Shown piece by piece: positions 6,873 to 44,331 of a DNA stretch of 47,474 nucleotides (its first letter is position 1; every line of letters begins with the position of its first letter). This DNA comes from a virus. Both the position numbers and the translations under genes were made by a program. The stretch spans positions 1 to 47,474 of IMG/VR virus record IMGVR_UViG_3300024518_004056. One strand, given 5' to 3'. Under the pieces are notes generated by a model. That model was given only the letters and a program-made list of their open reading frames with translations, was not told the DNA's origin and searched no databases.

Positions 6873-7889
6873 ATGCCTATAAATGTTGATTACACGCCGG
6901 TTGGCGAGATATACGAAGCCTCTCGTGTTGCGGGAAGCGTCCAGGGCCTGATGCAGGCTGACCAGATGCAGCAGCAGCAGGAGAACTTCGAGATGCGGCT
7001 ACAGGCCGAGCAACAGGCCCGCGAATGGACCGAGCGGATGCGACAGGAGGCCGCTACGGAGGATTACCAGCGAACCCTGGCGATGGCCCAGGCCAAGGCG
7101 GACATTGATTTCCAGACCGAGGTTGCCGCATACCAGAAGAAGCGGGCTTTGTTTATGTCCGAGGTTGGAGAAATAGAGGCCTCCGACAAGTTCACCTCGG
7201 CCCAGAAACAGGAAATTGTGGCGAAGGCCTATGCCAATCGCCTTGGGGTTACGCTTGGGAATACCACGATGGAGAACCTCCTGGCCAAGCAGCAGAACAA
7301 GATGGCCCTTGTAAAGCATGTCCAGGAGCAGGTGGACCTTAATGAGCAGGACCCGACTACCGGGATGACGCCGGAGGAGGGGCGGCAGCAACTTGCCGCG
7401 GCGGGTGTTCCGTATTCCAATAAAATGCTTATCCCGGAGAAAACACAAATACGCGACCAGTTGGATGGCCGCACTCAACAGCTTCGGCTGATTAAAACGG
7501 CGATGAAGGATTATGGTGTCGGTAAGGAATGGACCCAGCGGGGCAAGCTGACGGTTAAAGACACTCCCTCCAGCGAGCCGAGGGTGGCCCAGCCCCACGA
7601 GGAGGCCGCCTACGAGTCGCTCAAGAGACGGGCTACAGAGCTTATGGGCGAGATTGCCGAGCTTGAGAAGATGGCTAAGCCCGCAATACCGCAGAGGGAA
7701 ATCGACGCCTACCTGGCAACGCTGCCCCCCGAAGCGGCTGCGGGCTGGGAGATCGCCAAAGCTGAGGGCATGAGCTTCCAGGAGTTCCTGGAGAGAATAG
7801 GGGCAATGCCAAAGAAGCCAAAGAAACCGACTCTGTTTCAGAAGATTTCGCCCATTGGCGCTATGGGATATATCGCGGGGTCCGAATAA
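6873..7889 (+). CDS. Coiled-coil virion/internal protein
   Basis: Encodes 338 residues behind GGAG. Residues 25-75 are a Gln/Glu-rich coiled coil (DQMQQQQENFEMRLQAEQQA), and residues 230-265 form a second helix with heptad spacing. There is no signal peptide. It lies just before the giant virion protein and overlaps it by one base, which is the usual place for an internal core or ejection protein in podovirus-like genomes. That role is inferred from position and build only. Confidence 0.55.
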   Translation: MPINVDYTPVGEIYEASRVAGSVQGLMQADQMQQQQENFEMRLQAEQQAREWTERMRQEAATEDYQRTLAMAQAKADIDFQTEVAAYQKKRALFMSEVGEIEASDKFTSAQKQEIVAKAYANRLGVTLGNTTMENLLAKQQNKMALVKHVQEQVDLNEQDPTTGMTPEEGRQQLAAAGVPYSNKMLIPEKTQIRDQLDGRTQQLRLIKTAMKDYGVGKEWTQRGKLTVKDTPSSEPRVAQPHEEAAYESLKRRATELMGEIAELEKMAKPAIPQREIDAYLATLPPEAAAGWEIAKAEGMSFQEFLERIGAMPKKPKKPTLFQKISPIGAMGYIAGSE

Positions 7890-10800
7890 TGGGCAAGGCC
7901 TTTGATGACTGGCTGGGTGGATATAAAGAGTCGCCGACCGCAGTGGCTGAGCCCGCAACGTTCGACGACTGGCTCAGACAGAACCCCCAGGTCAAAGAGC
8001 AGGCCCAGGCCAGCATGGGCCTGGGCGAACAGGCCAAGATCATTCTCCCGGAAGCTGTCAAGGCGGGGGCTAGGGCCATCCAGGATATCCCTGCCGCCAT
8101 GAGCGACGCACTCTACATGATCGGGGACTTGTCAACCAAGCCGACTGCGTTTGAGAAGCACATCCGGTCCCAGCCGGGGGCGGCGGACAACCCACAAATC
8201 CAGGCGTATGCCAGGGCACTCCCTGCCCAGCGGAAGGCGATGCGAACGTTCGCCACCAACGTCAGTGATTACTGGAGAACTGCTCAGCGAGAGGGCTGGG
8301 AGAAGAAAGACCCCCGCATCGACAAGCTCAAGTGGTCGGAAGCGCCGATTCTTAAGGGCCTGGTCAGCGGCATTGAGTCGTCCGGCACGTTCTTGACGTC
8401 GGTGGCGGCGTCGGTGGTTACGGGCAATCCCGCCGTGGGGCTTGCCATCCTGAGCGCAGAATCCGCTGGCGGGATGTATAAGGAGCTTATTGCCGAGGGC
8501 GTGGACGAAGACATAGCTGGCCCGATGGCACTGCTGGCGGGCACATTCGAGGGCGTCAGTGAGCATTACCTTGGGTTCGACAAACTGTTTACGGGGACGG
8601 CGAAAACGCTGCTGCGAAAGTTCCTTAAGAGCGGTGCCCGCGAGGGGCTCCAGGAGTTCTTCCAGAACATGGGCGAAAACTACATACGGCACTTCGCCAA
8701 GGAATACGATGAGACCGGCGAGCCGTCCGAAGCCCTGAAGATTTCCTGGGCCGAATTGTTGGAAAACTGGCAGGAGGCGATCTCCGGTGGCCTGGTGATG
8801 GGTGCCGGGGGCGCTGTGTTGACGGGCCGGGCTGGCGTGGGTGAGGTGGAGGCCGAAGGGCTGCCAGAGGCACCGCCGCCACAGATGGGCCAGGCGGAGA
8901 AGGGTACGATACTCAAAGAAATCACCAAGCACTTCCTGACAGAGGAAAACGTGGACCTGGAAAGCGACGTTGCCAAGGGCGTCGTTGAGGGCGTCCAGGT
9001 TGTTGAGCCCCAGGGGGAGGAGCAGATGGCTGCCGACGAGGTGGCCCGCAGGCTGGGTAAGGACACGATATGGTTCATTGACCCGTCCCGCACTCTGGGT
9101 ATGCGAGGGCTTGTCGCTGGAGCCCTGCCCGGCACGATCTTTATGAACGCAGCCCAGGGGGCTGACGCGACCATGTTTGTCATGTCGCATGAGATTGGCC
9201 ACCAGCTACAGTTGGACTCGCCGGAGCTTTACGAGAAGTTTGCCGATATCGTTGAGGGGAACACCACAGGCTTTGAGCGGTTCGTCGAGCTGGACCGCAT
9301 CAAGAAGCTGGACTCCAGGGCCCAGAGAGACGAGTTTGTCGCCGACATGTTCGGCCAGGCTGCCCGCCAACCGGGGTTCTGGGACAAGGTTTTTCAGGCC
9401 GAGCCGACTCTGGGGCAAAAGGTCCTGCAAATCATTCGCAACGTCATCAATCGGCTCAAGCCGTACACGCCGGAGGCGAGAGAGACCGATGCGCTGACGG
9501 CATCGTTTATCACCAACATTTTCGCCATCGAAAAGGCGGCGGCCAAAGCAGCCAAGAAGTACGCCCCGGTCGCCAAGGAGCAGGCCGACGTTCGACTGCT
9601 CAGGCGAGAGGCGAAGATGGCATTGCAGGCGGGCCAGGAGTTGACTACGCCCCAGCAGCAGGCCCTGAAATACACTGACCAGCAGCTACGGGACCTACCG
9701 CGAGAGTTCGCCCGCAAGACATTCAGGCTCAGTGAGGACGAGACGACGAACCGGCAGATGCGAACGCTCGCCAATGCAGTCGAGGGCCCATATAAAGATC
9801 ACGCATGGACATTCCTGTCCAGCTTGCAGTATGAGGAGGGGCTGTCTCCGCGGACCGTGGCGGCTTACCTGACGGCAGTGAGGGATTTCTCCCGGTTCAT
9901 GGGCGACAAGAAGAAAGTCCAGGCCGTCCAGCCGGAGGACCTCCGGGCGTACAAGCAGTCTCTGGGTAAGGCCGGGAGGGCGGCGGCAACCGTCAACCTC
10001 CGAATGGCTGCCCTTAATGAGTTCTTCGGGTTCCTTACACAGACCAACCAGATTGCGGGCAACCCCATGCTGGCGCTGGCTGACGAGCGGGCCAAGGGTG
10101 AAAAGAAGTTGCCCAGGGTGCTGTCGGTGCCGCAGATGCGGAAGTTTGTTAAGACCGCCAGGGAAAAGAGCAGGCCGAGCCTGAAGGCGCGGAATACTGC
10201 CCTGGCTGAGATATTGTGGGCGACCGGCGCCCGGTCCTCTGAGGTTACGGAGATGAAAGTTGGAGACCTGCGGCTGGGCGAGCGGCTGATAACCCTGCAC
10301 GGCAAGGGGGCTAAGGACCGGCTGGTTCCGATAACACCATCCACGGCGACGGCATTGCAGGCCCATATCGAGGGAGCTGGTTTGCAGCGAAACGACTACC
10401 TGTTCCAGACCCGGACTGGCAAGCAGATGTACCGCCAGGACATCCACCGATTTGTCAAAGAGATTGTCCACAAGGCGGGCCTGCCGTCGTGGGTTAGCAC
10501 GCACTCGCTCAGGCACACATTTGCCACCCACCTGATGGAGGGCGGCGTGGACATTCGTTTCATCCAGGAAATGATGGGGCATTCCACCCCGGAAATAACG
10601 GCACTTTACGCACACGTAACGATCAAGCGGAAGAAAGCGGTGTTCAAAAAATACCACCCGTCAGAGGTGGGCATCCTGAAGCCGACGAAGGCGCCGGTGT
10701 CGGCAGAGGGCCTGCGATTCGCCGAGGGCAAGCCGCCCGCGAAACGTAAGTACGTTACCACTAAGGAGGGCAAGCTGGTCCGGGCGCCGAGCATGGAGCA

Positions 10801-13747
10801 GTTAAAAAAAGCCCCCGCCAGAGGCAAGAAACGTACTATTGCCCGGACGACCGGCATGGAAGTGCCTGGTAAGGCAGTGAGTGAGGAGAAGGCGCTGAGG
10901 GGCCGGATGCAGGCCCAGGAAACGGCGGCCAAGATGGGCGTCAAGGCCGGGCTGGCGATGGGCAAGGCCAAGGCCCAGGCACTCAAGGATAAATATAAAA
11001 CGCTGGCCGAGTGGCGAAAGGCGTTCCGTAAGTACGTCAAGAAGTCCCTGCCGGGTAGCGCCCAGGGGACCATGCTCACTGCCCTGGAGGGTATCAAGGG
11101 CGAAAAGAGCTATGCGAAAGCCCTTGAGCGGCTGCTGGCCAAGATCGAGCAGGTTCAGCGGACAGAGGCGCTTAGCCGTGCCAAGAAGCACATCAAGAAG
11201 ATTCAGAAGAAGTGGGGCCGCAAGGGCACGTTCGGCGGCTACAAGCTGCTGCCGGAGTACGAACGGATACTCACCCGGTCGCTGGAGAGGTTCACTACGA
11301 AGCGGGAAATGACCGAAGGCGAACGGGCCGACCTTGAGGAGTTGCTTGTGTGGGCTACTGAGGAGCAGGCCAAGCTGGAGGCGACCGGCGAGATGGACTC
11401 GCCCCTGCACCAGCACAATGTTATACCGACCATACAATCTCTAAAGACCCGCTTGGGGGCCATAAGCATAGCCAAGTGGCCCGCTGAGGACATCGACGCA
11501 TACACCGACTCCCTGCTGGCGGTGGTGTACCAGCACCTGTATGAGCGGACCGCATTCAACCGGGTTATGCGGGAGCGGCTGGAGTTCGATATCGCCCAGG
11601 GCGTGTCTGATGTTGGCGACGCCGCGGGCAGGCCAGTAGAGTCCCTCCGGGACGTGGGCGCCGAAACAGTGCGGGTCTGGACCAAGGTTAAAGATGAGGC
11701 CAGGGCCTTCTTGGGCAGACGGAACTTCAATATCTCCACCCTGGCCAAGATAATGAGCGGCATGAAGGGCCAGGGCCCCGTGTGGCGGCGCCTGGCCGGC
11801 AATATCGAGCAGGGGCTGGGCAAGGCCCTTGGACACAAGCAGGCGGTCCAGGACCTTATCTGGCGCCGCCTGGCGGACAAGGGCGTTGCCGCCAGGGACA
11901 TCATGTCGATGAGCAAAGTGCTCAAACGCGGTAGTTGGCAGGGGCCCAAGTGGCTAAAGAAGCTGGCTGAGTCGGACTGGGACGCGGAAGGCAAGAATTT
12001 CGTCTCGGTTCCAACACAGTATATCAAGGTCGCCCTGGACAGCGGCAAGAGCCTCAAGTTGTCGGTCGGCGAGGCCATTGATATCTTCATGCACACCCGT
12101 AACCCGGACAACTACAAGGCCCTGCTTGGGCCAAATGGTATATCTTTCTACGGCAAGCCGGTCCAGGAGGGGCAATCGCTCACTGATGCTGACGTGGATG
12201 CGATCACTGACGCCATGTTTGAGGCGGCTCCCAAGGCCCGTGCCGTTATCGAGGTTATGGAGGAGGCCGTGGCGTTCCAACAGGACGCCATCAACGTCCT
12301 TTCCCGTCGGATATTAGGGTATGACCTGGCGACGCTGCCGGGATACTGGCATATCAGGCGGCTACTGCCGAAAAAACCACGAGGAAAACAAGCGGCGTAC
12401 GCCTATGAGACCATTGAGGGACGCAGCCACCTGAAAGAGAGGGTGGGTGGGAGCGACCCGATTGTTATTGGCGACGCATTCAACAACCTGATCGAGACCG
12501 TGGCCGTTGGCGCCGACTACGTGGGGCTGGCAGAGCCATTGCGGAATGCCAAGACCATGATCGGGAACAAAGAGTTCCGGGCGGCGGCCGAGAAGAACGG
12601 CTTTGGCAAGTACCTCGATGACATAAGCTGGCAGATCGGGCAGATCGAGAGCCCGAAAGCTGACCGGATATGGTTTGACCGCTGGCTGGCGGCGTGGACC
12701 CGTAATGTAACCAGGGCGATCTTCGGGCATAACCTTAGAATCGCTGCCCAGCAGGAGATATCGGTATTCCTGGCGTTCGCTCACCTGCCGTTTAGGTATG
12801 CCAAGGCACTGCGGGCGGCCGTAACTGCCGACGTGGTGGCACGCATTGAACTCTGGAGCCCATATATCCGCGACCGTTTCGCAGGGCATATATCCAGGGA
12901 GGTTGGAGATATCGCCGAGACTGGCGGACCGCTCCGCTTCTGGACGGGGAAGGACCAGTACGCCAACCACGGAACGTTCCTGATTCGACACTTCGACAAG
13001 CGGGCTATCGTTAATGTGTGGAGGATGGTCGAGGCAGAGGTCGCTGACAAGGCGACATACAGCCACTTAACGAGGGAGGAGATGTACAATAATGGCGCGT
13101 ACCGGGCGGACGTGGTTGCCCGTGCCGAACAGATAATGCGGGACACGCAGCCGACCTGGCACAAGATTGACCGCTCGATTATTGGCTCCCATCCCAGCTC
13201 CGGCGCCAAAATACTGACGATGTTTCACTCCCAGCGAGAGAAGATGGTGCAGATGGCCGGCCAGGCCATCGCAGAGTACAAGAATAGCCCCAAGGACCGG
13301 GCTGCCAAGTGGAAGATGGCGCGGACCTACGGAATGGTGGGGCTGAACCTGGCGCTGGTTAACGCGTGGAAGGTGGCGTTTGCCACGTTAATCATGGGTC
13401 GCAAAGACGAGCCGGAGGAGTGGGCCACAAATGTTCTGGCGGACATTCCGGGCATGTTCTATGTCCTGGGGCCGCCGGTGCGGGAGTCCGTGAAAGCCGC
13501 CAGCCGGTCATACCGCCACAAGCGGGTGTACCAGTTGGGCTCAGTGTCGCTGCCGCCCCTGAAAATACTGGAATCCGGTCGGGATGCGGGGTATGCCTGG
13601 AACAAGGTTGCATTTGAATTGCTGGAGGGCCATAATGTAGAGAAGGAACTGGGCCGCGCCCTTGATAAAACCTGGGACTTTAGTCAGTACGCCCTGGGGC
13701 TGCCGTTCAAATCCGTGACGGATATAGCGAAGAAATGGAGCGAGTAG
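7889..13747 (+). CDS. Giant virion (polyvalent-like) protein with metallopeptidase motif and embedded tyrosine recombinase
   Basis: Encodes 1952 residues in one unbroken frame. In order: two short FDDWL motifs (residues 5-9 and 25-29); a hydrophobic Gly/Ala-rich region (about 150-240); a zinc-peptidase signature HEIGH (434-438) with a candidate third ligand E482 in DEFVAD; a complete tyrosine recombinase (about 630-920) with a SAM-like core-binding part and catalytic Arg782 (ATGAR), the Lys hairpin GKGAKDR, His872 and Arg875 (HSLRH), His898 (GH) and Tyr907 (LYAHV), at canonical spacing; then about 1000 residues of basic, mostly helical sequence. Giant multi-domain proteins of this kind (polyvalent proteins) are known to be packaged and injected. 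The fusion would let recombinase and peptidase enter the cell with the DNA; that is inference. A stand-alone integrase gene was not seen. Confidence 0.85.
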   Translation: MGKAFDDWLGGYKESPTAVAEPATFDDWLRQNPQVKEQAQASMGLGEQAKIILPEAVKAGARAIQDIPAAMSDALYMIGDLSTKPTAFEKHIRSQPGAADNPQIQAYARALPAQRKAMRTFATNVSDYWRTAQREGWEKKDPRIDKLKWSEAPILKGLVSGIESSGTFLTSVAASVVTGNPAVGLAILSAESAGGMYKELIAEGVDEDIAGPMALLAGTFEGVSEHYLGFDKLFTGTAKTLLRKFLKSGAREGLQEFFQNMGENYIRHFAKEYDETGEPSEALKISWAELLENWQEAISGGLVMGAGGAVLTGRAGVGEVEAEGLPEAPPPQMGQAEKGTILKEITKHFLTEENVDLESDVAKGVVEGVQVVEPQGEEQMAADEVARRLGKDTIWFIDPSRTLGMRGLVAGALPGTIFMNAAQGADATMFVMSHEIGHQLQLDSPELYEKFADIVEGNTTGFERFVELDRIKKLDSRAQRDEFVADMFGQAARQPGFWDKVFQAEPTLGQKVLQIIRNVINRLKPYTPEARETDALTASFITNIFAIEKAAAKAAKKYAPVAKEQADVRLLRREAKMALQAGQELTTPQQQALKYTDQQLRDLPREFARKTFRLSEDETTNRQMRTLANAVEGPYKDHAWTFLSSLQYEEGLSPRTVAAYLTAVRDFSRFMGDKKKVQAVQPEDLRAYKQSLGKAGRAAATVNLRMAALNEFFGFLTQTNQIAGNPMLALADERAKGEKKLPRVLSVPQMRKFVKTAREKSRPSLKARNTALAEILWATGARSSEVTEMKVGDLRLGERLITLHGKGAKDRLVPITPSTATALQAHIEGAGLQRNDYLFQTRTGKQMYRQDIHRFVKEIVHKAGLPSWVSTHSLRHTFATHLMEGGVDIRFIQEMMGHSTPEITALYAHVTIKRKKAVFKKYHPSEVGILKPTKAPVSAEGLRFAEGKPPAKRKYVTTKEGKLVRAPSMEQLKKAPARGKKRTIARTTGMEVPGKAVSEEKALRGRMQAQETAAKMGVKAGLAMGKAKAQALKDKYKTLAEWRKAFRKYVKKSLPGSAQGTMLTALEGIKGEKSYAKALERLLAKIEQVQRTEALSRAKKHIKKIQKKWGRKGTFGGYKLLPEYERILTRSLERFTTKREMTEGERADLEELLVWATEEQAKLEATGEMDSPLHQHNVIPTIQSLKTRLGAISIAKWPAEDIDAYTDSLLAVVYQHLYERTAFNRVMRERLEFDIAQGVSDVGDAAGRPVESLRDVGAETVRVWTKVKDEARAFLGRRNFNISTLAKIMSGMKGQGPVWRRLAGNIEQGLGKALGHKQAVQDLIWRRLADKGVAARDIMSMSKVLKRGSWQGPKWLKKLAESDWDAEGKNFVSVPTQYIKVALDSGKSLKLSVGEAIDIFMHTRNPDNYKALLGPNGISFYGKPVQEGQSLTDADVDAITDAMFEAAPKARAVIEVMEEAVAFQQDAINVLSRRILGYDLATLPGYWHIRRLLPKKPRGKQAAYAYETIEGRSHLKERVGGSDPIVIGDAFNNLIETVAVGADYVGLAEPLRNAKTMIGNKEFRAAAEKNGFGKYLDDISWQIGQIESPKADRIWFDRWLAAWTRNVTRAIFGHNLRIAAQQEISVFLAFAHLPFRYAKALRAAVTADVVARIELWSPYIRDRFAGHISREVGDIAETGGPLRFWTGKDQYANHGTFLIRHFDKRAIVNVWRMVEAEVADKATYSHLTREEMYNNGAYRADVVARAEQIMRDTQPTWHKIDRSIIGSHPSSGAKILTMFHSQREKMVQMAGQAIAEYKNSPKDRAAKWKMARTYGMVGLNLALVNAWKVAFATLIMGRKDEPEEWATNVLADIPGMFYVLGPPVRESVKAASRSYRHKRVYQLGSVSLPPLKILESGRDAGYAWNKVAFELLEGHNVEKELGRALDKTWDFSQYALGLPFKSVTDIAKKWSE

Positions 13748-21490: not shown

Positions 21491-21814
21491 CTATTCCTCG
21501 GCGTCGGGGTTCGGGTACGTGTCCACAATATGCTTCTTGCGGGTCCCTGTTATTGTACCAGCCCCGTAGTTTTTAGCAACCGCCTGGCTGTCAGCGCCCT
21601 CACCATTGCGTGTGTCAAGCAGCTTAATGCCGTACTTATGACAACGGGAGTACACCTGCCCGACCGTGAGCCCGGTCATGCGGCCAATAAACTTGCCGGA
21701 AAACCGCTTTTCGGCCCAAAACGCCACAGCCTTGTTAAGCCAGCCATTAGGCCCGTCCCAGTCAATTCTGCCTGATTTATTCAGGCCCACGTGGGAGGTT
21801 TTTCGTCTAATCAT
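21491..21814 (-). CDS. Helix-turn-helix-like small protein (GcrA-like feel)
   Basis: Encodes 107 residues from the ATG at 21814; AAAGGA is six bases before this start, whereas it touches the alternative ATG at 21820. Residues about 20-70 read NKAVAFWAEKRFSGKFIGRM followed by TGLTVGQVYSRCHKYGIKL, resembling the DNA-binding helices of GcrA-type and other phage helix-turn-helix proteins. The family assignment is tentative. It overlaps the zinc-finger gene by eight bases. Confidence 0.55.
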   Translation of the reverse strand: MIRRKTSHVGLNKSGRIDWDGPNGWLNKAVAFWAEKRFSGKFIGRMTGLTVGQVYSRCHKYGIKLLDTRNGEGADSQAVAKNYGAGTITGTRKKHIVDTYPNPDAEE

Positions 21815-22340
21815 TGCCATTCCTTTCGATAAATACGGGCGGGCCCAGCGTCAGCGGCACGCGGATTGTAATGTCTGGGGTCAACTCAAACTCCACATCT
21901 ATTGTCGGTTCGCCGCTCGTCAGAGCCGCTGTGATGCGTGAGCCGACCGATTGCTTGGGCTTTTGCGGGGGCCGGCCCCGCATCCCGACCGGATTCCAGT
22001 GCTGCGGACTGCCCAGTGCCTCAAAGTCTACGCCCGCAATCGCAGGGATTTTGGGGTAGCCGCCTTTTTTGTGGACGTGCCCGATGTGAGCGGCAACGCC
22101 CCGCCTGCCGACTGCCGTAAAGCCGCAATGGAGGCACTTAAACGGACCAATAAGCGTCTTATTGATGGCCTTGGCAGCCTTTTTGGCGGATGCCGCGGCC
22201 CGGTTCGGCCCGGCTCGCGTTACCGGGTCAATCGTTGCGGCCCAGTCGCCCGTGCTTGCCCCATGCGCACGGCTCAGGTGTGGGCGGACCTGTTTGATGG
22301 AGCCAAACACGTCCCCACATATCTTACATTCGTAATTCAT
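21807..22340 (-). CDS. Protein with two C2H2-type zinc fingers
   Basis: Encodes 177 residues. Two clear fingers are present: YECKICGDVFGSIKQVRPHL followed by SRAH at the N-terminus (C-x2-C-x12-H-x4-H), and FKCLHCGFTAVGRRGVAAHI followed by GHVH at about residues 67-90. The rest is a basic linker and a strand-rich C-terminal domain (EPTIDVEFELTPDITIRVPL). C2H2 pairs are uncommon in bacteria; in phages they usually bind DNA or RNA. The target is unknown. Confidence 0.7.
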   Translation of the reverse strand: MNYECKICGDVFGSIKQVRPHLSRAHGASTGDWAATIDPVTRAGPNRAAASAKKAAKAINKTLIGPFKCLHCGFTAVGRRGVAAHIGHVHKKGGYPKIPAIAGVDFEALGSPQHWNPVGMRGRPPQKPKQSVGSRITAALTSGEPTIDVEFELTPDITIRVPLTLGPPVFIERNGND

Positions 22341-22513: not shown

Positions 22514-22522
22514 AGCATACAG

Positions 22523-22550
22523 AGTATACGCCGTATGCGATCTAAGTCAA
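22523..22550 (-). promoter_or_regulatory. Strong early leftward promoter
   Basis: On the minus strand: TTGACT, 16-base spacer, TATACT. Each box has five of six consensus bases. The start codon of the next gene is nine bases beyond the -10 box. A 13-base near-palindrome shared with the promoter at 28772 overlaps the -10 box. Confidence 0.75.
22524..22536. promoter_or_regulatory. Candidate operator, copy 1 (GTATACGCCGTAT)
   Basis: The 13 bases are identical to 28784-28796. With flanking bases the site is a near-palindrome (GTATAC-GCC-GTATGC). It covers the -10 box of the leftward promoter, so a bound protein would block it. Confidence 0.6.
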
Positions 22551-22579: not shown

Positions 22580-22603
22580 AAAAAAGGGCCCCGAAGGGCC
22601 CCT
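22580..22603 (-). terminator. Intrinsic terminator closing the ubiquitin-like operon
   Basis: On the minus strand, stem GGGCCC/GGGCCC around a TTCG tetraloop is followed by six T. It lies two bases after the stop of the small zinc protein, so it ends the conjugation operon and insulates it from the next early promoter. Confidence 0.85.
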
Positions 22604-22604
22604 C

Positions 22605-22763
22605 TTATGGGTGGATAGCTTTACAGACCGCGCAGCGGTACTGTTTTTTGGGCGGACTGCCCGGCGAATCCGCCATGCGATTGCAGACCCGCCGCCCTTT
22701 ACCGTACAGGGCATCTTGGCTCGGACTTTTGCACGTACACCTAAAAACTTTAGTTTGGGACAT
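22605..22763 (-). CDS. 52-residue zinc-binding protein, last gene of conjugation operon
   Basis: Encodes 52 residues: MSQTKVFRCTCKSPSQ at the start, then DALYGKGRRVCNR and YRCAVCKAIHP at the end. The Cys residues (C-x-C, a single C, C-x2-C) suggest a small zinc ribbon; the YGKGRRV.N phrase is seen in other short phage proteins. It lies between the E1-like gene and the terminator. It may just be carried along, or it may be an accessory of the pathway. Confidence 0.65.
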   Translation of the reverse strand: MSQTKVFRCTCKSPSQDALYGKGRRVCNRMADSPGSPPKKQYRCAVCKAIHP

Positions 22764-22786
22764 AATAAGGCTCCTATAAAACGCGA

Positions 22787-23476
22787 TTAATCATCTATTT
22801 GTGGCGGCTTTGGCTTACCAGCAACCATAACGCCGGACAGGATATTTAGCACGATCTGAGGATTAAACAGCGGGATTCCCCGCAACCACTGGGAAAACTG
22901 CGCCACCATTAACCCCGCCGCAATGTTGGCACAATAACAGGTGCTTTTTGCGGTGCAGGGCTCCGTTAAGGATTCGTCGTCAGTGTGCAGCGACTCGGCG
23001 TAGTATTGCAGCGAATCGGCGATATTACTGTCGGCGGTCAATATCCGACAAATCTCAGCACCCATGCGGCCATCGCAGAAAAACCGAAAATGTCCTGTTT
23101 CGGCCTCAAATATCTCCCGCCTTGCTTCCATACTGTCAACACAAGCGAAGATTACCGTCTCGTCGGTCAACTGTCCGGGTTTGTATACGTCCGCTATCAT
23201 TTGCGGAATATCGGCGTCTGGATTGATTAAACAGATATCCCTTGCAACCGCAGCGACCTTGTCCTGTTCGATATCGGACGGCCAATGTCCCTGCGGCCCG
23301 ACATTTAGTTCCTCAATAGTGTCGGGGTCAATCAGGGTAAAACTCCCCGCGCCGCTTTGGGCTAACTGCATTGAAACATTACGCCCGATGGCCCCGACTC
23401 CGATAACTGCGATATCTAGACCCGCCAAACGCTCGGCGGGAATAATACCGCTCATCCTTAATTGCCGTTCACTCAT
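22787..23476 (-). CDS. E1/ThiF-like activating enzyme
   Basis: Encodes 229 residues from the ATG at 23476, which has GGGAG nine bases before it; a start at 23503 lacks support. Seen: the nucleotide loop VIGVGAIGRN (Gly26, 28, 31), DPDTIEELN (Asp50, Asp52, Asn58), DK at 72-73, and VDSMEARR at 113-120, all standard in the ThiF/E1 adenylation fold. Candidate catalytic Cys lies in EPCTAKSTCYC (Cys174, 180 or 182). E1 enzymes adenylate the C-terminus of a ubiquitin-like protein and pass it to a Cys. The start lies inside the JAMM gene end, so the two are translationally coupled. It is shorter than BilC-type E1s and holds only the adenylation part. Confidence 0.9.
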   Translation of the reverse strand: MSERQLRMSGIIPAERLAGLDIAVIGVGAIGRNVSMQLAQSGAGSFTLIDPDTIEELNVGPQGHWPSDIEQDKVAAVARDICLINPDADIPQMIADVYKPGQLTDETVIFACVDSMEARREIFEAETGHFRFFCDGRMGAEICRILTADSNIADSLQYYAESLHTDDESLTEPCTAKSTCYCANIAAGLMVAQFSQWLRGIPLFNPQIVLNILSGVMVAGKPKPPQIDD

Positions 23477-24266
23477 TGTCGAAACTCCCTTCTGGATATG
23501 CATGGTAGTGTTTACTTAACAGGTCTAAATACTCTTTCTCATCTTCGGTCAACGCCCCTGCTATGGGCCGGTCGAGGTGTCCCATTATTTTTGTATTGCC
23601 GTTGGTGGCGATTGCGGGAGTGGACACAACTCTTGGCTTTTTGCGCACGTTGGCGTCAAATTCATCGGCCCATTTTTGCTGTTTGGCGGGTAACGGCTTT
23701 TCCCATAATTCGACTGTGATCTTGAAATTATGGACATTGGCTTGCTTGCCCGCTTGGCTATATAGTTCGGCGTAGCTACTGTAGCTGTCATTGAATATCA
23801 GCATTACCGCCCAACTGCATTTTCCGAACGCTTTAGCGAATGTATTGTCATCGTCGTCGGACGGTCGCGGCCCCCAACTACCAGAGCCGCCGTGTGTGTG
23901 GAACCATATACGCCCGAACTGGTGGGGCTGGAGGCCTTTCTTGACCATCTTATGGTAATATTTGGCGACCGCCAAATCGTCTAAATCAGCATGACCAGCC
24001 CCAGTGCGCTGCGCTACAAGCGCAAAATCGGTGATCTCAAAAGGTTTTTCGAGATTCTCAACAACGCCGAACCCGCCGAACTCCCCGGTTGACCGGTCAA
24101 TCCAGAATTTGAGTTTTTCGGTTGCCTTCTGGGTGCAGGTAAATGATACCGAAGGCAGCTTTGGTTTCGCTTTGTATATCACCTGCCCGCCGTGGCCCCC
24201 GTGAAAACCCATATAGCCGTACCCGTAATTTGCGTACTGTTGTTTGTGTTTTTTACGTCTGCCCAT
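23469..24266 (-). CDS. JAMM/MPN+ metalloprotease, deubiquitinase-like
   Basis: Encodes 265 residues behind AGGAG. After a Gly/Tyr/His-rich leader (1-35), residues 40-170 hold a JAB domain: Glu62 in GEFGGFG, then WFHTHGGSGSWGPRPSDDDD with His123, His125, Ser136 and Asp139 in the exact H-x-H-x10-S-x2-D layout of active JAMM enzymes. Such enzymes trim ubiquitin-like precursors or remove them from targets. The remaining C-terminal part (170-265) is helical and unassigned. It overlaps the E2-like gene by 14 bases and the E1-like gene by 8, which supports a joint pathway. Confidence 0.9.
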   Translation of the reverse strand: MGRRKKHKQQYANYGYGYMGFHGGHGGQVIYKAKPKLPSVSFTCTQKATEKLKFWIDRSTGEFGGFGVVENLEKPFEITDFALVAQRTGAGHADLDDLAVAKYYHKMVKKGLQPHQFGRIWFHTHGGSGSWGPRPSDDDDNTFAKAFGKCSWAVMLIFNDSYSSYAELYSQAGKQANVHNFKITVELWEKPLPAKQQKWADEFDANVRKKPRVVSTPAIATNGNTKIMGHLDRPIAGALTEDEKEYLDLLSKHYHAYPEGSFDNE

Positions 24267-25287
24267 TGGTAGTTTCTCCTAAGTCGATAACCAAGTGATC
24301 GGTTGTAATTGCGGCCGTTGCCGTGTCGATGTTGAGCCCAATCGCCACTGTTGGCTCGGCGGGTTCGGGCTTGGCTTTACGTGTTTTGGGCAATGCCAGC
24401 CCACAGTATACACATTTGCCGCCCCCTCCGCAGTCTGCGCAGTGCAGCGCATGACAGGCCTTGCAAGTCTTTGACGACAACAAGGCCAGAGAAGGACAAA
24501 ACGCGCAGCGCTCACGCGCCCGCCCTGTACCCTCTTTAGCCCAATACCGACAATCACGATTGCCGCCGTAGTTATGAGTATTAAGCATTTGCGCTATGCA
24601 AAAAACCGCTTCAAACAGAAACCCACCCGCAAGACGCGCGCGTATAGGGTTGCCGATTTCGCCCAGACAGGCGTACCCGCCGTCATATACGTGCGGATGG
24701 ATGCAACCGCCACTTCGGCGGGTTTGGTGTTTTACGATTACCAATCCCGTCTCTCTCGGAGCCTCGCCGTAACTTCGGCGTAACCTGCGTCCGCGCTTTG
24801 CAAGGTTAATCTCGATGCGATACCGGCCCATCGGCATGATTCGTTTATACTTATTGATGAATCGCGGCGCGGTGATAATATGCAGCCACCTAGGCGCGTC
24901 GGGGTCGGCGTAGACGCCCGAAACAAAGTCAGCCGCCGCAAGGGCCCGGATTTGGCTTCCTGTGGGCTTAGAGTGTACGTGACGGCCACGTGCGGTCATT
25001 GCCCGGTTGTTTGCTGCGCAATACTGTATGTCGCCAACTTCGCGCCAGATTTGCCGACACACGCCGTTAGGCAATGGGTTTGTTGCGGCATCAGCTAATT
25101 GCGCGGCCAACTGGGCTAACCTGCTGGCATAATAGCCCGGAGATTTGCGGTCACCCTGTGGGGTTTTCCACCATTGCGCCCAGATCGCCGCGGTTTCGGC
25201 GGCACTATCAAATGCCCCGTCATAATGTGCAGCAACCGTGGACAACAGTGATGCGTTTTTGGCGTGCGATAAGTTTACGTGATACAT
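24253..25287 (-). CDS. E2-like conjugating enzyme with RING-like C-terminal zinc region
   Basis: Encodes 344 residues behind GGAGG. The N-terminal 120 residues are helical and unassigned. Residues about 130-240 show an E2 signature: HPHVYDGGYACLGE (His197, Pro198, candidate active Cys207), with the same His-to-Cys spacing as the HPN...C motif of ubiquitin-conjugating enzymes, after strands RYRIEIN and LVIVKH. Residues 261-295 give C-x2-C-x10-C-x3-H-x3-C-x2-C-x5-C-x2-C, which fits the C3HC4 RING formula. Four CxxC knuckles also fit a double zinc ribbon, so RING is a candidate, not proven. A fused E2 plus E3-like part in a phage would be unusual. Gene neighbours are Ubl upstream and JAMM downstream. 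Confidence 0.8.
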   Translation of the reverse strand: MYHVNLSHAKNASLLSTVAAHYDGAFDSAAETAAIWAQWWKTPQGDRKSPGYYASRLAQLAAQLADAATNPLPNGVCRQIWREVGDIQYCAANNRAMTARGRHVHSKPTGSQIRALAAADFVSGVYADPDAPRWLHIITAPRFINKYKRIMPMGRYRIEINLAKRGRRLRRSYGEAPRETGLVIVKHQTRRSGGCIHPHVYDGGYACLGEIGNPIRARLAGGFLFEAVFCIAQMLNTHNYGGNRDCRYWAKEGTGRARERCAFCPSLALLSSKTCKACHALHCADCGGGGKCVYCGLALPKTRKAKPEPAEPTVAIGLNIDTATAAITTDHLVIDLGETTNGQT

Positions 25288-25299
25288 GATGTTACCTCC

Positions 25300-25338
25300 A
25301 AAAAAGAGACGCGCCGCCCACGCGACCGACGGCGCGTC
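25300..25338 (-). terminator. Attenuator-like terminator between Ubl and E2 genes
   Basis: On the minus strand, a perfect 9-bp stem (GACGCGCCG/CGGCGCGTC) with a 13-base loop is followed by TCTTTTTT. It lies in the 60-base gap between the Ubl stop and the E2 start. It should cut expression of the enzymes relative to the Ubl. Confidence 0.8.
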
Positions 25339-25347
25339 CGCCCATAA

Positions 25348-25581
25348 TTAACTACCGCTGACATTGACGGGTGTAGCCGATATGGTGTCCCCGTCTTTGA
25401 GGACTTGGGAGATTTCCGCCGGCAGTGTTTCGACGGTTATCAACAAACCAGCCAGCGACTCCCCGCCGCCGGCCCCGCGGACAAACTCCCCGACCGTTGT
25501 GCCGTTGCGGATTGTGTGGGGCCTAACAAACCCGCCGCCCTCATTGGAGATATAACACACTTTAATCATTTCATCTTCCAT
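25348..25581 (-). CDS. Ubiquitin-like (beta-grasp, ThiS/MoaD-type) protein
   Basis: Encodes 77 residues; GGGAG precedes the ATG at 25581. The beta-grasp pattern is visible: strand MIKVCYIS, turn, HTIRNGTTVGEFV, central LLITVETL, then QVLKDGDTISATPVNV, the last element being the standard LxDGDxI motif before the C-terminus of ThiS, MoaD and Ubl proteins. The protein ends VSGS; removing the last Ser would expose Gly76, as needed for E1 activation, and a JAMM protease is encoded in the same operon. It is the first gene of the conjugation operon and is separated from the rest by an attenuator. Confidence 0.8.
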   Translation of the reverse strand: MEDEMIKVCYISNEGGGFVRPHTIRNGTTVGEFVRGAGGGESLAGLLITVETLPAEISQVLKDGDTISATPVNVSGS

Positions 25582-25617: not shown

Positions 25618-25633
25618 CGTAGTACGCACTACG
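25618..25633. promoter_or_regulatory. Hairpin/possible operator in Ubl leader
   Basis: CGTAGT and ACTACG form a perfect 6-bp inverted repeat with an ACGC loop, in the 5' leader of the conjugation operon. It could be a protein site or leader structure. Confidence 0.4.
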
Positions 25634-38740: not shown

Positions 38741-40033
38741 ATGAAAAAGATACTCGTGCTTTCGCACATGCCGACGAGAGACGACGTGGTGGATGTTATG
38801 CTCACACAAGAGCTTGGCAAGCACGCCGTTTCCTGGAAGGTTTCAGTGCTTGATTACATTCGCGGACACTGTCTGTCGATAAAGCCCGACATTGTCGTGT
38901 TTCCTGAGATACGTTGCGAGTACACCAGGGACATGGTGAAACAACTGCACGAGTGGGGTGTCGTTGTCGTCCAGAAGCGATGCGAGATGGGCGTAACTGC
39001 CGAATCGGACATCGACGCTGAGACCCACCGGGCCGTCTTTGGCAACTGGCAGATAGGTGGGTATATCGACCTGGACCTGGTGTGGGGGCCCAGATTTGGC
39101 GAAATGGTGGCACGGCACACTGATATATCCGGCGACAAAATCAAGGTGGTCGGGGCCCTCGGCTTCGATCAATACTTCATACCCCCCCCGCCGGTGGAGG
39201 AGCCTGACGGCAAGACGGTCCTGTTCGCCGGTGGTTTTGGCTATGCCGACCGACAGGCCATATATTCAATACCGGAAGCGAAGCTCGGCGAGGCCATCCA
39301 CACTAACTCTGTGGCGGACGACAGGAGCCGCAGGCATTTCTTCATAGAACTCATTAAAGGTTTCCGCAAGCGGTTCCCGGACTGGACATTCAAGGTCCGC
39401 CCGCATCCGGGGGAGAGTGGCACCGCATACAACAAGGCGCTGGGCGAGGACGTGGAGTTCCTGGCTAACATGCCAGCCGTTGCTGCCCTTAGAAATGTGG
39501 ATGTTGTGATTCACACTGGTTCTACGATGGCCTTCGAGGCACACCTGCTCGACAAGCCCACGTTGAATTTTCGCAATACGTCGCTGGATACACTGGTGGG
39601 GTCAGTCGCCCCGACATACGCCTGTGCGGAGGACCTGCTGGACGCATTCGCGGTGATGGACACCACCAAAAGCAATGCCGACCTGGAAGTGATTGACCGG
39701 CTAAAGCGGGACTATTACGGGCCGATAGATGGCAAGGCGCACAAGAGGGCCGCAGAAGCTATTTTGGCATTGCCGGCGCGGCCCACGACATACCCAAGAG
39801 AGTGGCCAAAGGATGAGATCAAGTATCAATCCAAGGGGGTCCACGCCAGTGTTGATAAGTGGTTCTGCGCGGCCTGCCTGAACCTGTGGTTTGGCGATAA
39901 AGGCCGGGACCTGCTGAAGTGCCCATATTGCGGCATTCCGTGCGTAGTCCATGTTCCCAGGAAGGATGAAAATGCAATTCTATCGCTGCAAAAAGTGTCT
40001 GATGGTGTCAACCCGCCCAAGGATAACGTTTGA
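38741..40033 (+). CDS. Surface-carbohydrate glycosyltransferase-like protein with zinc tail (copy 1)
   Basis: Encodes 430 residues from the ATG at 38741, just past the terminator. It starts MKKILVLSHMPTRDD, has FKVRPHPGESG and VVIHTGSTMAFEAHLLDKPT, the phosphate/nucleotide-sugar style of surface-polysaccharide GT-B proteins. The C-terminus ends in a zinc ribbon WFCAACLNLWFGDKG then LLKCPYCGIPC. It is a paralogue of the gene at 41518. It would add a sugar or polyol to a glycan; donor and acceptor are unknown. It overlaps the next gene by 62 bases. Confidence 0.7.
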   Translation: MKKILVLSHMPTRDDVVDVMLTQELGKHAVSWKVSVLDYIRGHCLSIKPDIVVFPEIRCEYTRDMVKQLHEWGVVVVQKRCEMGVTAESDIDAETHRAVFGNWQIGGYIDLDLVWGPRFGEMVARHTDISGDKIKVVGALGFDQYFIPPPPVEEPDGKTVLFAGGFGYADRQAIYSIPEAKLGEAIHTNSVADDRSRRHFFIELIKGFRKRFPDWTFKVRPHPGESGTAYNKALGEDVEFLANMPAVAALRNVDVVIHTGSTMAFEAHLLDKPTLNFRNTSLDTLVGSVAPTYACAEDLLDAFAVMDTTKSNADLEVIDRLKRDYYGPIDGKAHKRAAEAILALPARPTTYPREWPKDEIKYQSKGVHASVDKWFCAACLNLWFGDKGRDLLKCPYCGIPCVVHVPRKDENAILSLQKVSDGVNPPKDNV

Positions 40034-41024
40034 CGGGAACGGTGTCTGTAACGCCTGCCAGTGGCATGAGACCAAGAAAACAGTCGATTGGAGGAACCGG
40101 GAGCAAACTTTCGACGCCCTGTGCAACAGGTTCATGCGAGCGTCGGGCAATGACTGCATAGTCCCCTGGTCTGGTGGCAAAGACTCGATCTATGTCGCCC
40201 ACACGCTGCATGATTATGGCATGAACCCGCTCCTGATAACCATAATCCCGCACTTGGAGACGGAGATCGGCAAATGGAACCGGCTTAATATGTGCCCGGA
40301 CTTCGACCACCTGATGATAACCTTGGAGGAAGGGCGGTATCGCCGGGAGGCCAAGAAGCATTTCCTCCAGCACGGCAGGCCGAAGCACCCGTGGGAGAAT
40401 GCAATCTCAGCGGTGATCTTGCAGCAGGCGGTCAAGCTGGATATCCCATTTGTCATATACGGCGAGGAGGGTGAGCAGGAGTATGGTGGCACGTCCCAGG
40501 AGGCAGATACGTGGATGTGGCCGGTGAGTAAAGAGTACCTGACGAAGTTGTACTATTCGGGGCAGACGGTCTACAAGTTGCCGCGCAACGCCGAGTTCGA
40601 CAGCCTGTTTTTCACCCAATGGAGCCGCTTTGAGAACTGGTCGCCGTCTACGCACGCCAACTTCGCCATCGCCAAGGGCATGAGAACCGAGCCTGTCCGC
40701 CACCAGGGCACGCTGACCACGTCATCCCAGATATCAGACAAGCTCCAGGACCTGCACATGCACCTGGCCTTCCTGAAGTTCGGCTTCGGGCGATGCACCG
40801 CGGACACATCTATCGCCATCCGCGACGGCTGGATGACACGGGAGGAGGCCATCGGCTGGGTCCAGTCGTACGAGGACGAGCTTCCAATGCGGTACTTCCA
40901 GGAATACCTGGAATATTTCGGCATGTCGGCCAGAGAATATTGGGCGGCACTTGACAGACACGTAAACTTGGATATACTCAAGAAAGAGCATGAGAAGTGG
41001 GTTCTGAGGGAGCCAGCGTTTTGA
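39972..41024 (+). CDS. N-acetyl sugar amidotransferase (PseA/WbpG-like)
   Basis: Encodes 350 residues from the ATG at 39972 (GGAAGG six bases before). Cys6 and Cys9 (YRCKKCLM) with Cys26 and Cys29 (GVCNACQWHE) form a zinc ribbon. A PP-loop ATPase motif SGGKDS (67-72) follows. This is the layout of the family that turns an N-acetyl group into an acetamidino group on surface sugars, known from pseudaminic and legionaminic acid pathways. It sits with NeuA, NeuB and NeuD homologues, so the product is probably an amidino nonulosonic acid. Confidence 0.85.
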   Translation: MQFYRCKKCLMVSTRPRITFDGNGVCNACQWHETKKTVDWRNREQTFDALCNRFMRASGNDCIVPWSGGKDSIYVAHTLHDYGMNPLLITIIPHLETEIGKWNRLNMCPDFDHLMITLEEGRYRREAKKHFLQHGRPKHPWENAISAVILQQAVKLDIPFVIYGEEGEQEYGGTSQEADTWMWPVSKEYLTKLYYSGQTVYKLPRNAEFDSLFFTQWSRFENWSPSTHANFAIAKGMRTEPVRHQGTLTTSSQISDKLQDLHMHLAFLKFGFGRCTADTSIAIRDGWMTREEAIGWVQSYEDELPMRYFQEYLEYFGMSAREYWAALDRHVNLDILKKEHEKWVLREPAF

Positions 41025-42789: not shown

Positions 42790-43534
42790 GTTTGCGTGTG
42801 TACTGGCGGCCAGGGCGGGTTCTAAGCGGCTAAAGAACAAGAATCTGCGGAAGTGTGCGGGGAAACCGCTGTGGGAGTGGACAAAAACAGCCGTGGACGC
42901 GGCTGAGATGTTCGACGACAAGTGTGTAACCACCGACCTGGAGACCCTGTATCACCATTTCGTGTCGGGGAACTGGGTCTGGGCGACCCGCCCACCGGAA
43001 CTTGCTGGAGACGATGTCCACATATCCGATGTCATGCAGTGGATGGCCCAGCGAGAGTACGTCGACCACGAGTATCTGTGCCTCGTGTCGCCCACAAATC
43101 CCTTGCGGACCGGCGCCCACATCCGCGATGCAGCCAAGCTGATGCTGAAAGAGGGGGCTGATGCGGTTGTGGCGGCGGCACCTGGGCCGCCTGGGAGTCA
43201 AGACGTATCCCTGGACGATAGCAAGCAGCTTCGGCCCCGCTATCCACATATCTGCGACCAGTTGACGCAGGCCTGGAGTGGGAGTTATCACTTGACAGGC
43301 TCCATCGTAATCGCTAAAACCGAACTCTGGGCCAGGAAGGCCAGTATATATAACGACCCGAATATCAAAACCGTTGGCTACGTCATGCCCAAGTGGGACA
43401 TTGATATCGACGGCAAGGATGACCTGTTTATGGCGGAGGCTATATTAGAATGCCTAAGAAAAAGACGGATATCTTTGAAAAGCTCTTTAAGGTCTGCACT
43501 ACAGGGACGATTAAGGAGAAACAGCGGACGGTAG
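42773..43534 (+). CDS. neuA: CMP-nonulosonate (sialic acid-type) cytidylyltransferase
   Basis: Encodes 253 residues. The N-terminus AARAGSKRLKNKNLRKCAGK is the CTP loop of NeuA-type enzymes; SPTNPLRTGAHI and WDIDIDGKDDLFMAEAIL are the other family marks. It activates nonulosonic acid by joining it to CMP, ready for transfer. The start overlaps the previous gene, and the last 28 residues overlap the radical SAM gene in another frame. The symbol is by family; Neu, Leg and Pse forms cannot be separated by eye. Confidence 0.88.
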   Translation: MLQGHKFACVLAARAGSKRLKNKNLRKCAGKPLWEWTKTAVDAAEMFDDKCVTTDLETLYHHFVSGNWVWATRPPELAGDDVHISDVMQWMAQREYVDHEYLCLVSPTNPLRTGAHIRDAAKLMLKEGADAVVAAAPGPPGSQDVSLDDSKQLRPRYPHICDQLTQAWSGSYHLTGSIVIAKTELWARKASIYNDPNIKTVGYVMPKWDIDIDGKDDLFMAEAILECLRKRRISLKSSLRSALQGRLRRNSGR

Positions 43535-44331
43535 GGATTTTCCCCAAGCTGGTCGATATAGAGTTGACCAACTGCTGTAATATGCGGTGCAAGATGTGCC
43601 CGACAGGCTCTGGGACCGTCAATCGCACCGTTGGCTACATGGACACCCGGCTGATCGACAAAATACTCACCGAGTTGTCCAAGTTCAAGACGCCGGTGCG
43701 GTTTATACGCTGGGGAGAGCCAATGCTGCACCCAGCGATCTACGATATCCTGCGGCAATGCAAGGAATATGGCATTTATACCCACATCAACACCAACGGG
43801 TGGATGCTCTCGCCGAATATCGCCAAATCACTCGTTGCGACCGGGGTGGACAGCATTAAAATCTCCATGCAGGGTCATGACAGGCAGTCATACGCCCTCG
43901 TGCGGGGCATGGACTTCTTTGTGCAGCTTTGTGATGATATCCGGGGGTTGGTGCTGGCCCGTGGCAAGTCAAAAACGCCCCGGATTGTGGTTGGGACGAC
44001 TGTTTCACATGAAACACCGGCTGCTAAGAAGGTGGGCGAACTCCACAAGGTTGTGGATAAGGTGTATGTGGGCAAAACTCTCGACCTGGCGGAGAAACGA
44101 GACCCGCCAAAGGTCTGCCCGGAGGTCTGGGACAAGTTGTCAATCGACTGGGATGGCAAGGTAACATGCTGCTGCGGGGATTACGACAACTTTATGACAG
44201 TGGGAGACCTGGAGAACCAGACGCTTCGGGAAATCTGGGTGGGGGAGAAGGCGAAGGGATACCGAAAGAAGCTGGCGGAGCATAATTACGAGGGATTGGC
44301 GCTGTGTCAACGCTGTGCGCGAGGAATATGA
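43450..44331 (+). CDS. Radical SAM/SPASM-type enzyme
   Basis: Encodes 293 residues. The radical SAM motif CNMRCKMC (Cys43, 47, 50) is intact, followed by FIRWGEPMLHP (the GGEP-like motif) and a SPASM-like tail with CPEVWDKLSIDWDGKVTCCC and LCQRC for extra Fe-S clusters. The reaction is unknown; in sugar cassettes such enzymes can make amino or deoxy groups. It overlaps its neighbours, so it belongs to the cassette. No known nonulosonate step needs it, which makes it notable. Confidence 0.85.
   Translation: MPKKKTDIFEKLFKVCTTGTIKEKQRTVGIFPKLVDIELTNCCNMRCKMCPTGSGTVNRTVGYMDTRLIDKILTELSKFKTPVRFIRWGEPMLHPAIYDILRQCKEYGIYTHINTNGWMLSPNIAKSLVATGVDSIKISMQGHDRQSYALVRGMDFFVQLCDDIRGLVLARGKSKTPRIVVGTTVSHETPAAKKVGELHKVVDKVYVGKTLDLAEKRDPPKVCPEVWDKLSIDWDGKVTCCCGDYDNFMTVGDLENQTLREIWVGEKAKGYRKKLAEHNYEGLALCQRCARGI

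Follow-up and report, generated by a model that had tools for sequence, protein, structure and literature searches.

Can a phage carry the whole machinery for attaching a ubiquitin-like protein (Ubl) to other proteins, and if so, what would it tag? The question is raised by a leftward cassette, Ubl–E2–JAMM–E1, at 25581 to 22787 on the minus strand of IMG/VR virus record IMGVR_UViG_3300024518_004056. The window, i.e., the whole stretch of DNA that was analyzed, is this entire record of 47,474 bases. Because its proteins include a match to a major head protein (E 5e-10), a Cas4-type exonuclease and, by a weak match, a terminase, the record is a phage; no exact terminal repeat was found in it. 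Prokaryotic Ubl conjugation is known chiefly as bacterial anti-phage defence, whereas here the machinery belongs to viruses, and to many lineages of them. A sequence-only reading of this DNA had proposed a complete Ubl-conjugation gene set, and the proposal holds: each of the four proteins was placed in its family by profiles, and the Ubl and the E2 by structure models as well. Judging from these sequences and models, it is highly probable that the operon encodes reversible Ubl conjugation, comprising JAMM processing, E1 activation, E2 transfer, attachment to targets and removal by JAMM. The core genes, and the segments of the E2 discussed below, are as follows.

25348..25581, minus strand: Ubl, 77 residues, beta-grasp ubiquitin-like protein with the C-terminus ...VNVSG76-S77
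24253..25287, minus strand: E2-like protein, 344 residues
24667..24699, minus strand: E2 active-site motif H197-P-H-V-x3-G204-x2-C207, with a counterpart motif in independently found relatives
24403..24507, minus strand: putative zinc-binding C-terminal segment of the E2, with four CxxC pairs (C261/264, 275/278, 283/286, 292/295)
23469..24266, minus strand: JAMM/JAB isopeptidase, 265 residues (E62, H123, H125, S136, D139)
22787..23503, minus strand: E1-like enzyme of the ThiF family, 238 residues as listed (GxGxxG, DxDx5N and Cys183 in a PCT motif)

All motifs on which the sequence-only reading had built its case were found again, namely LKDGDTI in the Ubl, HPHVYDGGYAC in the E2 (with H197 and C207), H123-T-H125-x10-S136-x2-D139 in the JAMM protein, and GVGAIG together with DPDTIEELN in the E1. 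Retrieval from the PDB with a profile of each family indicates that all four proteins have the expected folds, beyond chance. For the Ubl family, the profile retrieved PF1061 (E 2e-11) and SAMP2 (E 5e-11), and the 77-residue protein gave a confident beta-grasp model (predicted local distance difference test, pLDDT, 88), to which Caldiarchaeum ubiquitin, SUMO, MoaD and ISG15 are nearest. The window Ubl has the form of a beta-grasp modifier with a C-terminal glycine or processable tail. Among 35 non-redundant Ubls, the window protein included, the last glycine lies at most 6 residues from the end in 32, compared to ~42% expected from composition, and the usual endings among the relatives are SG, KG or AG followed by 0-3 residues. 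One phage gene (L069:10543-11196) contains three tandem Ubl repeats, each ending in KQIKGN, and is, judging by its sequence, a polyubiquitin-like precursor. Both the near-terminal glycine and these repeats fit trimming by the adjacent JAMM, and Gly76 of the window Ubl is likely to become the reactive C-terminus once Ser77 is removed.

The E2-family profile retrieved eukaryotic UBCs (E 2.4e-7), the top row being an engineered UbcH5B-RING fusion (E 4e-8). The model of the window protein consists of a helical N-terminus (residues 1-100, poorly modelled), a UBC core (~104-254) and a Cys-rich C-terminal segment, in which the four CxxC pairs have a RING-like spacing. The core superimposes on Ubc13 (Z 8.1, 119 residues, root-mean-square deviation 3.2 A), and a structure search with it gave E2s in all 50 rows listed. 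Thus, the E2 fold that had been expected around Cys207 was found both in the model core and in the profile matches to eukaryotic E2s, which makes the protein a predicted UBC-fold E2 with an active-site cysteine. Neither of the two outcomes that the sequence-only reading had named as refuting it, the lack of a beta-grasp fold in the 77-residue protein or of an E2 fold around Cys207, was observed. Two adjacent E2-like genes were observed in three cassettes of other loci (L046, L052 and L093).

The JAMM-family profile retrieved RPN11 (E 5e-11) and JAMM1 (E 5e-9), and the residues E62, H123, H125, S136 and D139, which make up the E, HxH and SxxD set of a JAMM/JAB metalloprotease, are invariant across 35 diverged rows. 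With the E1-family profile we retrieved ThiF (E 2e-21) and also ubiquitin E1s; G35, G37, D59, D61, N67, K82, D123, R128, R146 and C183 are invariant across 31 rows. The protein has the adenylation motifs of an E1 and a predicted catalytic cysteine, C183, which lies in a PCT motif, where the catalytic cysteine is located in Uba1. Among the four proteins, curated libraries recognise the E1 only (ThiF in Pfam, 71.2 bits versus a cutoff of 28.1). The E2, JAMM and Ubl are below every Pfam cutoff and lack convincing counterparts in NCBIfam, PHROGs and PADLOC, and the E2 family as a whole goes unrecognised by these four libraries.

To what extent is this cassette found elsewhere? We scanned IMG/VR with the E2 pattern HPH[VI]-x3-G-x2-C-x-G and built iterative profiles from the returned stretches. 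Among 94 stretches, 73 contain E1, E2 and JAMM genes, 55 contain all four genes, and 47 have the order Ubl-E2-JAMM-E1; in 73/73 of the stretches with E1, E2 and JAMM, the core genes share a strand. A second scan of IMG/VR used an E1 motif and was, therefore, independent of the E2; its counts are among the matches listed. A family E1 is present in at least 104 of the 118 stretches, and a JAMM gene lies nearby in at least 87 of those 104. The proteins in the E2 slot of these loci (an alignment of 36 non-redundant proteins of 380-660 residues) have the proline of HP-x-[IV] in 35/36 and the cysteine in 36/36 cases, and share conserved C-terminal cysteines as well.

Scans of IMG/VR with single proteins returned no relatives for the window E2 or E1 and one false positive (L001) for the JAMM, tblastn of the E2 and JAMM against named phages gave no matches, and a search for close phage relatives that have the cassette gave none. 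The window E1 is nearest to those of L059 (~40% identity by tblastn) and L030 (~37%), two IMG/VR phages, the former within a 183-kb contig, and to that of a contig of a Thermoplasmata archaeon (L115). All three have full cassettes like that of the window, but their E2 and Ubl are strongly diverged. In the E1 tree, the window and these three form one clade (Shimodaira-Hasegawa-like approximate likelihood ratio test, SH-aLRT, 98), while viral and cellular rows are intermixed in what is a quick tree with many weak branches. Cassettes were also detected in contigs binned as bacteria of the candidate phyla radiation (CPR), Myxococcota/Deltaproteobacteria, Planctomycetota, Thermoplasmata and Lokiarchaeota, which may be chromosomal or viral.

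Used as a tblastn query against named phages, the window E1 returned 78 records, most of them from crAss-like Bacteroides phages or from Flavobacterium phages. For example, gp79-gp78-gp77-gp76 of Bacteroides phage crAss001 follow the gene order of the window cassette; they are annotated as hypothetical, hypothetical, metalloprotease and ThiF (thiamine biosynthesis), respectively. The gp77 protein matches the phage JAMM profile (E 8e-24) and gp76 matches the E1 profile (E 8e-44). The N-terminal domain of gp79 resembles the Ubl, weakly (probability 36, E 4e-4), and ends in KIKSG, with the KSG motif shared, followed by a long tail; gp78, upstream of gp77, has an HSHV...PCTG motif. We did not accept gp78 as a proven E2 (hhalign probability 0.8, no PDB match) and kept it by motif and position only; relatives of gp78 and of gp79 are present in 45 phage records each, with an identical organism tally. 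The crAss001 locus differs from the window in that gp79 is a long precursor and the E2 fold of gp78 is unsupported by profiles. With a weak resemblance for the Ubl and no significant one for the E2, crAss001 probably, rather than provably, carries a complete cassette. What phages tag, and why, is testable now, since this probable version is found in a culturable human gut phage.

These distributions bear on a broader proposal, to which we give an even chance: covalent Ubl tagging may be a strategy of infection that is widespread among tailed phages and has so far gone undescribed. Many lineages would use it, crAss-like gut phages probably among them, to modify host or replication proteins; the E2s would have zinc-binding targeting tails of their own, and some of the Ubls would be made as polyubiquitin-like precursors. 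Viruses may have helped to spread such systems, since the family is common to phages and CPR/archaeal contigs. Tail protein I aside, our searches of the open literature, including the jumbo-phage and crAss001 papers, turned up no account of Ubl conjugation encoded by phages; an earlier mention in subscription papers is possible.

Several observations weigh against reading the cassette as a conjugation system. The E2 model is confident in the core only (mean pLDDT 63), and a Z of ~8 is at the level where the tool warns of a mere common arrangement. H197, P198, H199, G204 and C207 are invariant in the E2 alignment (A4), partly by construction, because the same motif was used to select the loci. 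In a Pfam search of the segment, the Cys-rich tail of the E2 matched no RING family, so that a RING domain is not supported by Pfam despite the four CxxC pairs. In most of the E1-motif loci listed, the E2 slot was recognised by motif only and not by the E2 profile. Finally, two phages with capsids 60-63% identical to that of the window and with records of similar size, which are possibly incomplete, have no detectable E1, JAMM, E2 or exonuclease; as a control, the same E1 search recovered 8/8 known carriers. Because these two capsid relatives are without detectable E1, JAMM and E2, phages of this type can do without the system, and the cassette is an accessory module in the lineage of the window, insofar as the records are complete.

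What would the system be used for? The cassette lies in a leftward block with the Cas4-type exonuclease, and the head and tail genes are on the opposite strand. Near the cassettes of other phages are genes for primase, Mu Gam-like end protection, DnaB helicase and RNA ligase, and the crAss001 cassette is flanked by primase and uracil-DNA glycosylase. The sequence-only reading had spoken of an early region, which fits both the leftward module with its exonuclease and the position of the relatives' cassettes beside primase, Gam and DnaB genes. Under the mechanism that we propose, the JAMM protease would cut Ser77 off the Ubl and leave Gly76 exposed. The E1 would adenylate this glycine and keep the Ubl bound to Cys183 as a thioester, and the Ubl would then be handed to Cys207 of the E2. 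The E2 would attach it to target proteins, perhaps with its Cys-rich C-terminal segment serving as an integral targeting or E3-like part, and JAMM would also take the Ubl off the targets again. The gene set, the predicted folds, the catalytic residues, the near-terminal glycine and the gene order in many phages come from sequences and models, and from them we infer enzymatic activity, transfer direction, timing and targets. Because expression would be from the early DNA-recombination region, the targets are more likely to be host or phage replication proteins than finished virions. The best reading is an accessory early-region module that would reversibly tag host or phage proteins during infection, with host takeover or replication control as the target class favoured by location.

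A narrower form of this explanation is a SUMO-like control of the phage's own replication or DNA-end protection, via tagged replication/repair proteins. It draws on the replication, end-protection and RNA ligase genes near the cassettes of other phages and on the Cas4-type exonuclease that neighbours the cassette in the window; however, early phage genes of many functions share such regions and neighbourhood alone names no target, and we put this form forward tentatively, as possible but short of an even chance.

Bil targets virions, and a Bil-like defence (superinfection exclusion) would mean that the phage tags structural proteins of its rivals, whose particles then fail. Such a role would suit an accessory cassette that capsid relatives do without, and bacterial operons built from comparable parts are indeed anti-phage (Bil genes, PMC11354881), the BilABCD operon combining Ubl, E2, JAMM and E1 as in the window. 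Conversely, the Bil membership features that were tested all fail. BilA has two Ubl domains, BilD has an inactive and an active adenylation domain, and BilB has a CEHH motif (PMC11354881). In the window, the Ubl is a 77-residue single domain rather than two in tandem, the E1 is a single 238-residue domain, and the CEHH pattern (C, +6 E, +8 H, +13 H) is absent, residues 213, 215 and 220 of the E2 being N, I and A, with HPH...C as its motif instead. Given also the weak similarity to BilC (E 0.04), close kinship with Bil is not supported. There is no sign of lysogeny-linked expression, the cassette sits in replication/recombination modules and not in a defence island, and no tested feature favours rival virions over the phage's own. 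We consider this defence role unlikely.

Other known systems were compared in the same way. Membership in PRTRC is not supported, as the NCBIfam PRTRC ThiF model scored 34.3 bits versus a cutoff of 144.75 and the other proteins had no PRTRC match. Citrobacter BubCD has E1 and JAMM domains related to those of the window at profile level (weakly for the JAMM profile, E 0.002), but carries both on one fused chain, whereas they are separate genes in the window, which speaks against Bub membership. CBASS type II (Cap2/Cap3) has an E2-E1 fusion with a CD-NTase; E2 and E1 are separate in the window, and no CD-NTase was found among the scanned neighbours of the cassette. The closest solved relatives of the Ubl and JAMM, archaeal SAMP2/JAMM1 and Caldiarchaeum ubiquitin/Rpn11, belong to cellular systems, and the SAMP pathway is not known to have a UBC-type E2. 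In PMC1779556, prokaryotic operon types 6a-6e are combinations of E1, E2, JAB and Ubl, some of them on mobile elements; types 6a-6c have a fused E2-E1, the E2 of type 6d is without the upstream His, and type 6e has a polyUbl and an inactive E2, all unlike the window. The cassette would resemble known prokaryotic Ubl conjugation in its working, but fails the defining Bil and PRTRC features and lacks the BubCD fusion.

A further alternative is that the Ubl tags the phage's own structural proteins during assembly, as a more elaborate counterpart of the lambda tail protein I/K pair. In lambda-type phages, tail assembly involves a Ubl (TAPI) together with a JAB protein (TAPK), and the accessible part of the same source (Iyer 2006, PMC1779556) reports phage Ubls in tail assembly only, as tail protein I. 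That pair sits among tail-assembly genes and is without E1 and E2, whereas the window cassette has both, is on the strand opposite the structural genes and neighbours recombination/replication genes; gp75-gp79 are unmentioned in the crAss001 structure paper, which is weak evidence. We regard tagging of the phage's own particles as improbable. A sulfur relay (ThiS/MoaD-like carrier, ThiF-like enzyme and JAMM) for thio-compound or nucleic acid modification, instead of conjugation, appears very improbable: the Ubl and E1 profiles match ThiS/MoaD and ThiF too, JAB-E1-ThiS operons of sulfur metabolism exist (PMC1779556) and the window has a weak PAPS-reductase-like match, but in the E2-motif loci JAMM and E1 have a UBC-fold E2 as their neighbour, the E2 slot of most E1-motif loci examined among those listed is filled by an HPx[IV]...C protein, there is no rhodanese, and L069 has a polyUbl precursor.

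The remaining features of the cassette are as follows.

25618..25633: perfect palindrome CGTAGT-N4-ACTACG, upstream of the Ubl gene
22605..22763, minus strand: Cys-rich open reading frame (ORF), zinc-ribbon-like, 52 residues, last gene in the transcription unit of the cassette
22581..22606, minus strand: intrinsic terminator of the cassette, hairpin of -18.4 kcal/mol, z -2.8, T6 behind

The E2 and JAMM genes overlap by 14 bp, and the JAMM and E1 genes by 35 bp using the listed E1 start. An alternative ATG at 23476 is preceded by GAAGGGAG and leaves an overlap of 8 bp; it is more likely to be the E1 start than 23503. Four overlapping genes with a promoter and a terminator had been described earlier. 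The overlap stands for E2, JAMM and E1, whereas the Ubl gene overlaps nothing and is separated from the E2 gene by a 60-bp gap; the terminator is seen in the hairpin and its T6, but the promoter scanner listed no promoter upstream of the Ubl on the minus strand. The palindrome has a single exact copy in the window, and matches with two mismatches are at chance level, which led us to reject it as a repeated operator; as a single site it is a possible operator. Just downstream of the terminator, at 22520-22550 on the minus strand, a promoter-like TTGACT-N16-TATACT (10/12) overlaps the partly palindromic GCATACGGCGTATAC. The 52-residue ORF had no family match in the curated-library scans.

Some other genes of the window should be mentioned. 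Adjoining the cassette, a 177-residue protein (21807-22340, minus strand) has two C2H2-type zinc-finger matches, one of them above the Pfam cutoff. At 39951-41024 (plus strand) there is a weak partial match to phosphoadenosine phosphosulfate (PAPS) reductase (E 5e-4, 41 residues), and at 43450-44331 (plus strand) a radical SAM protein with a SPASM domain (Pfam 1.6e-15 and 4.2e-12) is encoded among the structural-module genes. A 1952-residue ORF (7889-13747, plus strand) encloses a complete tyrosine recombinase at residues ~642-911 (Pfam Phage_integrase, 1.7e-37), with the R...HxLRH...Y motifs visible, and its residues 1377-1818 match a 1524-residue phage protein family of unknown function; by its sequence, it looks like a polyvalent protein with an embedded integrase.

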